From contig JAQXDK010000021.1 in NCBI GenBank assembly GCA_029251405.1, positions 1 through 64,000 on the forward strand: a stretch of 64,000 nt of DNA, given 5' to 3'. Shown piece by piece: positions 6,700 through 48,760 of this stretch (positions are counted from its first letter, which is position 1; every line of letters starts with the position of its first letter). The translations under genes and the position numbers were made by a program. The notes beneath the pieces are model-generated. The model was not told the origin of the DNA. It made no database searches and saw nothing but the letters and a program-made list of their open reading frames with translations. Source of the stretch: Flavobacteriales bacterium (lineage in GTDB: Bacteria; Bacteroidota; Bacteroidia; Flavobacteriales_D; Parvicellaceae).

Positions 6700-6752
6700 T
6701 TTGAATTTTTTAGCTTTTTTTGGTGGTTGCAAGCAGTCAAATCATTCCACTA
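6700..6752 (-). promoter_or_regulatory. SAM-II-family riboswitch in the metK leader
   Basis: On the minus strand the leader reads GUGG (6750-6747), then a loop with UGAUUUG, GCUUGCAA, then CCAC (6726-6723), an A-rich linker, AAGCUAAA, and UCAAA (6704-6700). P1 is GUGG/CCAC. The pseudoknot can form from loop UUUGA (6741-6737) with UCAAA, and loop GCUU or UUGC with AAGC/GC(U)AA. GAUUUG, CUUGCA and GCUAAA are hallmark conserved segments of SAM-II riboswitches, with SAM-V sharing the same core. Its place before metK fits the ligand. How binding stops expression is not obvious; no Shine-Dalgarno site is seen between 6699 and the start. Confidence 0.85.
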
Positions 6753-6794
6753 ATAAAAAACGTAAATGTAAAAAAATCTTTTTCAGTTAATATA

Positions 6795-44969: not shown

Positions 44970-45356
44970 ATGTCCATAATTAACAAATTAGGAAGAAGAA
45001 AATCTTCAGTAGCTAGAATTTACCTAAAAAGTGGAAAAGGTAAAATAACAATTAATAAAAGAGATCATAAAGACTACTTCACTACAGATGTATTGCAGTA
45101 TAAAGTTTTTCAACCTTTTGAATTAACAGGAACAAAAGGCAAATACGATGCTACTATTAATGTTAATGGTGGTGGTTCTACTGGTCAAGTTGAAGCTATA
45201 AGATTGGCAATTTCAAGGGCGCTAGTGGAAATAAATGCAGATTTCAAACCACTACTTAAAGCAGAAGGTCTCATGACTAGAGACCCAAGAATGGTTGAAA
45301 GAAAGAAACCAGGACAACCTAAAGCCAGAAAAAAATTCCAGTTTAGTAAAAGATAA
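44970..45356 (+). CDS. rpsI: Ribosomal protein S9
   Basis: A 30S protein whose C-terminal tail reaches the P-site tRNA. The 128 residues include LGRRKSSVARIYLKSGKGKITINKR, GGGSTGQVEAIRLAISRAL, and the conserved C-terminus RKKPGQPKARKKFQFSKR ending in Lys-Arg. It is cotranscribed with rplM. Downstream lies a structured leader before rpsB. Confidence 0.98.
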   Translation: MSIINKLGRRKSSVARIYLKSGKGKITINKRDHKDYFTTDVLQYKVFQPFELTGTKGKYDATINVNGGGSTGQVEAIRLAISRALVEINADFKPLLKAEGLMTRDPRMVERKKPGQPKARKKFQFSKR

Positions 45357-45370
45357 TTTTAATAATTAAT

Positions 45371-45447
45371 GTGCCAGGGCACATGGTTTAGTATCTAAGG
45401 CCTACAGATCAAATAAATGCTACTGTACGCCTGCTGATAAAACAGTA
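45371..45447 (+). promoter_or_regulatory. Candidate ribosomal-protein leader of rpsB-tsf
   Basis: The 109-nt gap between rpsI and rpsB is GC-richer than usual and can fold. Hairpin 1 pairs GUGC (45371-45374) with GCAC (45379-45382). A small UUAG/CUAA hairpin may follow (45388-45398). Stem A pairs GGC-C-UACAG (45399-45407) with CUGUA-C-GCC (45423-45431), one mismatch. Stem B pairs UACUGU (45421-45426) with ACAGUA (45442-45447). Stems A and B share 45423-45426 and cannot coexist. By analogy to S2 leaders in other bacteria, S2 could bind one fold and shut off rpsB-tsf; that is inference. Confidence 0.6.
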
Positions 45448-45465
45448 ACAAGAAAGTAAACAAAT

Positions 45466-46245
45466 ATGACAAAAGTAACTTTTGAACAAATGTTAAATGC
45501 CGGAGTTCATTTCGGACATTTAAAAAGGAAATGGAATCCAAGTATGTCTCCTTATATTTTCGATGAGAAGAAGGGGATTCATGTAATTGATTTAAACAAA
45601 ACTTTAATCAAACTAGAAGAAGCTTCTAATGCAATGAAACAAATTGCTAAATCTGGAAGAAAAATTCTATTTGTTGCTACCAAAAAGCAGGCTAAAGAAA
45701 TCATGTCTAATAAAGTTGCAGAGGTAAATATGCCTTCAATAACTGAAAGATGGCCGGGTGGATTATTAACCAACTTTAAAACTACTAGAAAAACCATCAA
45801 AAAAATGACTTCCATCGATAAGATGATGAAAGATGGTACTGCTGACACGATGTCTAAAAGAGAAAGATTGCAGTTAACTAGAAAAAGAGAAAAAATTGAT
45901 AAAATTTTTGGTTCTATTTCAGATATGAATAGATTGCCAGCTGCAATTTTTATAGTTGATGTTAAAAAGGAACATATTGCTTTAGCTGAAGCTAGGAATT
46001 TAAATATTCCAATTTTTGCAATGGTAGATACTAATTCTAGTCCAGAAGGAATTGATTTTATTATACCTTCCAATGATGATGCAACGAAATCAATCGATTT
46101 AGTAGTTTCTAACCTTTGCGATTCCATCAAGGAAGGTTTAGGTGAAAGAAAACAAACTAAAGAAAAAATTGCTCAGGAAAAAACAGCTAGTGAGTCTGCT
46201 AAAACTGAAGAAAATCAAGTTACTAAAGAAGAAGTTAAATCTTAA
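45466..46245 (+). CDS. rpsB: Ribosomal protein S2
   Basis: S2 is a late-assembling 30S protein and docking site for S1-type factors. The 259-residue protein begins TKVTFEQMLNAGVHFGHLKRKWNPSM and contains ITERWPGGLLTNFKT and VDTNSSPEGIDFIIPSNDDATKSI. A Lys/Glu-rich C-terminal tail of about 35 residues extends beyond the core. It is followed by tsf after 13 nt. Confidence 0.98.
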   Translation: MTKVTFEQMLNAGVHFGHLKRKWNPSMSPYIFDEKKGIHVIDLNKTLIKLEEASNAMKQIAKSGRKILFVATKKQAKEIMSNKVAEVNMPSITERWPGGLLTNFKTTRKTIKKMTSIDKMMKDGTADTMSKRERLQLTRKREKIDKIFGSISDMNRLPAAIFIVDVKKEHIALAEARNLNIPIFAMVDTNSSPEGIDFIIPSNDDATKSIDLVVSNLCDSIKEGLGERKQTKEKIAQEKTASESAKTEENQVTKEEVKS

Positions 46246-48523: not shown

Positions 48524-48760
48524 ATGAAAAAATTATGGATTTTACCACTTGCAGCTATTATGTTTTCTTGCGGAGCATCTACTGATCAAGCTCCAGTTGC
48601 TGAACCAGTTGAAGAAGTTGCACCAGTTGAAGAAGTTGTAGAAGAGGTTGTTGCTGACTCTACTATGGAAGAAGCTGCTGCTGATTCTACTATGGAAGAA
48701 GCTGTTGCTGATTCTACTATGGAAGAAGCTGCTGAAGAGCACGAAGGTCACGACCATTAG
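48524..48760 (+). CDS. Small acidic repeat lipoprotein
   Basis: A 78-residue predicted lipoprotein: MKKLWILPLAAIMFSC puts the lipidated cysteine at residue 16. The mature part is almost entirely acidic repeats: PVEEVA-type hexads, then three 9-residue units ADSTMEEA(A/V), then an ending with three histidines, EEHEGHDH. No family recognised. The net charge is strongly negative; the His/Glu tail could bind metal, which is inference. It is a free-standing gene with its own terminator. Confidence 0.75.
   Translation: MKKLWILPLAAIMFSCGASTDQAPVAEPVEEVAPVEEVVEEVVADSTMEEAAADSTMEEAVADSTMEEAAEEHEGHDH
48653..48733 (+). repeat. Three tandem 27-bp repeats in the small lipoprotein gene
   Basis: Each unit is GCTGAYTCTACTATGGAAG followed by AAGCTGYT and encodes ADSTMEEA(A/V). 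Copies differ at only two positions (GAC/GAT and GCT/GTT), which suggests recent expansion and possible copy-number variation. Confidence 0.9.

Follow-up and report, generated by a model that had tools for sequence, protein, structure and literature searches.

The window analysed here is a stretch of 64,000 nucleotides from a Flavobacteriales bacterium (GenBank assembly GCA_029251405.1, contig JAQXDK010000021.1, positions 1 to 64,000), in which the ribosomal protein genes rplM, rpsI and rpsB are followed by tsf (Table 1). The gap between rpsI and rpsB, given as 109 nt in the initial annotation of this DNA, has exactly this length, and the stretch directly 5' of the rpsB AUG is the A-rich GUAAACAAA. 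The same annotation described the gap as a structured rpsB leader, in which a GUGC/GCAC hairpin precedes two mutually exclusive stems (A and B), with S2 or another ligand selecting between the folds. Folding energy is weak proof of such a structure: the predicted fold of the gap is only somewhat more stable than that of its shuffles (z -1.98, with 6 of 200 shuffles equally good), and a second figure is z -1.53. With folding energy only moderate, it is comparative evidence that has to carry the claim of a structured leader.

For this comparison rpsB was found via the S2 protein in 199 relatives, and upstream DNA was taken from a selection of them. The compared gaps extend from the rpsI stop to the rpsB start; relatives were picked by their S2 protein while the leader sequence was ignored, and region L056 (G030) was left out. 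The element is present in every one of the 81 distinct rpsI-rpsB gaps of relatives. In an alignment of 22 sequences 95% of the cells pair, versus 31-43% for slid structures, and two-sided changes number 122 versus 41.8 in shuffles; among 86 model-aligned sequences, an alignment that leans toward the structure, the corresponding counts are 437 two-sided cells versus 138. Because a structure-fitted alignment could bias covariation, 214 cores were also aligned with MAFFT alone, blind to structure, and the 163 of them that had sufficient S2 protein to build a tree entered a test in which an APC-corrected G statistic was compared with that of columns evolved independently on the S2 tree (a home-made analogue of R-scape, not R-scape itself). 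Ranked by strength, the first 11 of the 2016 column pairs in this alignment are all P2 pairs, and seven of them reach E < 0.05 under the tree-based null. The 5' region of rpsB thus harbours a conserved RNA structure supported by covariation, as is expected of a ribosomal-protein leader. The claim of a structured leader is strongly supported in consequence: a lack of compensatory changes, or conservation ending at the genus, had been named as grounds for giving it up, and we found covariation together with conservation far beyond the genus.

The core of the leader is a single extended hairpin composed of P1, a symmetric GNA/ANG internal loop, P1b, P2 with a conserved inner bulge, and an optional P3. 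From 5' to 3' the consensus reads GUUUAGnAUCYAA, P2 (~10 bp, at a fixed distance), the inner bulge and UUGCU or similar, then a variable stretch or the small stem P3, followed by GAAnGUAAAC and the start codon. In the own genome the single significant match of model R1 is the rpsB leader core.

Table 1. Genes of the rpsB cluster and elements of the rpsB leader (positions in the window).
Feature	Position	Strand	Remarks
rplM	start 44517		upstream of rpsI in the same cluster
rpsI	44970-45356		upstream of rpsB
P0, 5' hairpin AUGUGC-CAGG-GCACAU	45369..45384	+	45369-45374 pair with 45379-45384
Conserved core of rpsB leader	45386..45461	+	model R1 66 bits, E 1.2e-11; in 81/81 gene-anchored gaps
P1 5' strand GUUUA	45386..45390	+	pairs with 45457-45461
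Symmetric internal loop GNA	45391..45393	+	faces 45454-45456, between P1 and P1b; G and A nearly invariant (214 cores)
P1b 5' strand UCY	45394..45396	+	pairs with 45451-45453 (RGA)
P2 5' strand	45398..45407	+	includes 5' half of stem A; covariation
P2 inner bulge and apical loop	45408..45422	+	A45408-U45421 pair, bulged A45422, inner pairs 45410-45411 with 45418-45419
P2 3' strand	45423..45432	+	includes 3' half of stem A; covariation
P3, small stem CUG/CAG	45434..45445	+	45434-45436 with 45443-45445; own family only
P1b 3' strand AGA	45451..45453	+	partner of 45394-45396
P1 3' strand UAAAC	45457..45461	+	3' end 4 nt before rpsB AUG
rpsB, ribosomal protein S2	45466..46245	+	directly 3' of leader
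tsf	start 46260		next after rpsB

The closing helix P1, helix P1b and the symmetric loop between them were absent from the initial annotation and are the most conserved parts of the element. P1 and the GNA/ANG loop are nearly invariant across the gaps of relatives; 99.8% of P1 cells are paired in the 86 sequences, and the helix is changed on both sides in only a few lineages (A-U for G-C in L062 and L070, GUUUC/GAAAC in L075). The middle bases of the two loop strands tend to co-vary (U-A, C-C, U-U and a few G-G, hence including non-Watson-Crick combinations), a correlation that is not significant under the tree-based null (E 0.43). The third pair of P1b switches between U-A and C-G, with 31 two-sided and 16 unpaired cells in the 86 sequences, and likewise stays below significance in the tree-based test (E 2.5).

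Stem A (45399-45407 with 45423-45431) lies where the initial annotation had placed it and forms the strongly covarying core of P2. The inner region of P2 carries a conserved GA..GCUAC in one subtype, and its inner pairs covary. At least two further forms of the inner bulge replace GAYC/GCUAC, namely GAGYACC/RACCCUC and GGC or AAGCC/GCCAC or GCCAU; such variants were found in L060, L063, L083 and L086 (family f8) and in Flavobacteriaceae loci such as L154. The leader therefore has subtypes, which a single model scores unevenly. All P3 cells are paired (45 of 45 and 54 of 54) and all are invariant, so that covariation is uninformative on this stem. The proposed GUGC/GCAC hairpin is present as well and corresponds to P0: in 15 close relatives 90 of 90 cells are paired, and five of the six pairs show compensatory changes. 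P0 is a real, family-level accessory outside the class-wide core, and in other families both its sequence and its length are variable.

Stem B (45421-45426 with 45442-45447) fared differently. It is fully complementary in the window, yet it shows no compensatory change in the 15 close relatives, its pair G45425-C45443 is formed in three of these and broken in 12, and its covariation score is 0.000. On the 5' side the stem draws on the conserved GCUAC bulge, and its 3' half, CAGUA, is missing outside the own family. The complementarity is best ascribed to chance, and stem B is not a conserved alternative fold.

When about 85,000 species genomes were scanned with a pattern, at least 117 loci were recovered; because the pattern fixes P1, they are uninformative on variation in this helix. 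Among the matches listed, all those with room downstream directly precede rpsB and follow rpsI, usually with rplM upstream as well. By their NCBI names nearly all belong to Flavobacteriales and Bacteroidales, and the carriers comprise many gut and marine Bacteroidota, including loci labelled Bacteroides and Prevotella. One metagenome-assembled genome (MAG) labelled Chlorobiota groups with Bacteroidales-type loci in a tree of S9, S2 and L13, which makes its label doubtful; the labels of single Chitinophaga and Delongiibacteriota MAGs may likewise be wrong. Model R1 matched at least 78 of 395 genomes of the class, with one match each, in a fast first-pass search that loses matches. In about 40 further Bacteroidia families it found nothing at the gene-anchored loci, whose rpsI-rpsB gaps are mostly 1-99 nt long, and a phylum-wide pattern search returned no match in any genome outside Bacteroidia. 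The leader is accordingly a conserved structure with a fixed position before rpsB and one copy per genome. Over 214 loci the distance from the end of P1 to the rpsB start has a median of 14 nt, and in 194 of them it is 0-19 nt; a few lineages are more widely spaced, at 25-55 nt. The S9/S2/L13 tree requires eight changes in the presence of the element, and at least three of these changes are forced by well-supported branches. An early origin with losses and several separate gains fit this tree alike and cannot be told apart.

The leader has no match in Rfam 15, neither in the window nor in 20 relatives. Rfam matches in the window are confined to tRNA and a SAM-II riboswitch (6700-6756, minus strand, 57.9 bits); weak matches to Lnt, mir-9461, BsrC and RAGATH-25 are far below the gathering scores and were taken as chance. 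In the open literature (main texts) we found no description of an S2 leader in Bacteroidota. Eckert and Weinberg reported 20 leaders, including those of L13, S4, S15 and S16 for Bacteroidia or Flavobacteria and none for S2 (PMC7247131). Their L13 leader of Bacteroidia resembles the rpsB leader in belonging to the operon rplM-rpsI-rpsB, in its bacterial class and in having been predicted from covariation, but it sits upstream of rplM, whereas the rpsB leader lies between rpsI and rpsB in the listed loci with room to see. The S4, S15 and S16 leaders are likewise lineage-specific ribosomal-protein leaders of this group (PMC7247131); they belong to other genes and ligands, and the structural comparison with them consists in the absence of an Rfam match. 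Autoregulation of rpsU by bS21 in Flavobacterium johnsoniae is a case in which a small-subunit protein controls its own translation start in the same group, although it works through an extended Shine-Dalgarno (SD) sequence and ribosomes lacking bS21 (PMC9976891), and not through a folded RNA as would be the case here. The best reading is that the rpsB leader represents a new structural class of ribosomal-protein leader, with S2 as its putative ligand. If so, a leader class common to Bacteroidales and Flavobacteriales has been missing from Rfam 15.

Among the closest known RNAs is t44 (RF00127), the rpsB motif, in which a helix surrounds P2 and, where present, P3; it has been assigned to Proteobacteria, Cyanobacteria and Firmicutes by Meyer and colleagues, who do not name Bacteroidota (PMC2704228). 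Both RNAs lie directly before rpsB and both have a helix that encloses further stems (PMC2704228); moreover, GUAUC/GAUACGU of t44 faintly resembles GYAUC/GRAYGU of the leader. Outside Bacteroidia, gene-anchored loci (L318-L329) have 103-278 nt before rpsB, and t44 matches occur on the gene strand upstream of rpsB in three of ten sister-class loci (E 4e-4, 0.016 and 0.66), below the Rfam gathering score. Since these matches sit exactly where an S2 leader is expected, the classical leader probably persists in the sister classes at the same position, which in Bacteroidia is held by an element of different sequence and structure, and RF00127 may be extendable to this phylum. Shared position and gene, together with the t44-like leaders of the sister classes, could mean that our leader belongs to the classical family and has diverged strongly, instead of being an independent RNA. 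We regard this as unlikely, as there is no sequence or model match either way: t44 matches neither the window (at E up to 10) nor 20 relatives (at E up to 1), and model R1 in turn matches none of the loci from sister classes. In addition, bases paired in t44 would mismatch in the leader, and the pseudoknot of t44, formed between the P2-P3 junction and an extension after P1, is not seen; the segment 3' of P1 is short, A-rich and variable in length and has no evident pseudoknot partner. A tentative scenario, to which we give somewhat less than even weight, is that ancestors of Bacteroidales and Flavobacteriales lost the classical S2 leader, that its job and place passed to an unrelated RNA which acts by directly closing an SD-less start, and that repeated losses followed in other Bacteroidia. 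If this is true, one regulatory job, the control of S2, is done by apparently unrelated RNAs in sister lineages.

As to the function of the leader, we consider it probable overall that it acts in cis on rpsB by an S2-dependent closing of the start region. S2 is the likely ligand, judging from the position of the element and from the known S2 leader of other bacteria: in E. coli, S2 represses rpsB-tsf via the leader with the help of S1 (PMC10931766). Free S2, perhaps assisted by S1 as in E. coli, would bind the P2 bulge and the invariant loop between P1 and P1b, and would stabilise the weak, A-U-rich P1. The closed P1 would block ribosome loading on the SD-less, A-rich rpsB start region, which would lower the synthesis of S2 and, by coupling, of EF-Ts; once S2 has been incorporated into 30S subunits, P1 would open and rpsB would be translated. 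The S2 operator of E. coli excludes the ribosome binding site, and its mechanism is unsettled (PMC10931766), whereas here P1 nearly touches the start codon, so that its placement would differ both functionally and structurally. Ribosomes of this bacterial group disregard SD sequences (PMC6847099, PMC9976891). In F. johnsoniae the rpsB start region is without SD (PMC9976891), and what tunes SD-independent initiation there is RNA structure together with adenines close to the start codon (PMC6847099). Where SD-independent initiation is tuned by structure in the start region, a helix stabilised there by S2 is a plausible repressor, and we infer that P1 masks the start site; direct masking would be weaker in the few lineages in which P1 ends farther upstream. 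If the mechanism is true, it offers a route to how proteins repress translation where ribosomes ignore Shine-Dalgarno sequences.

The same translational leader might respond to S9, L13, EF-Ts or S1 instead of S2. With rpsI and usually rplM upstream of rpsB, and in the same orientation in nearly all listed loci, position alone is compatible with S9 or L13, and L13 is already known as the ligand of another leader RNA of this operon in Bacteroidia, located at rplM (PMC7247131). We think such a ligand quite unlikely, given that the element directly precedes rpsB and not rplM or rpsI, and that the t44-like leaders of the sister classes occupy the same place, the E. coli leader of that type responding to S2 (PMC10931766).

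Little credence is given to a constitutive element, that is, an RNA processing or stability signal or an aid to ribosome loading that senses no protein. Its location between co-directional genes would agree with this, and the A-rich GUAAACAAA before the AUG suits a favourable start region (PMC6847099); on the other hand, a 10-bp helix with a bulge at a strictly fixed place, together with two loop strands that do not vary, suggests specific recognition, and many families have the same gene order without the element, which argues that it is dispensable for plain expression or processing.

That a ligand picks between two competing stems is hardly credible, for although A and B can both be drawn in the window with bases 45423-45426 in common, stem B is unconserved as set out above, and stem A is compatible with all other conserved helices. 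As to features of a transcription attenuator or of a riboswitch with a terminator, no U run follows P2 or P3 in the window, and stem B as the competing, antiterminator-like stem is unconserved. Farther downstream in the window, after frr, a small predicted lipoprotein with a repeated ADSTMEEA unit is encoded at 48524-48760 on the plus strand.
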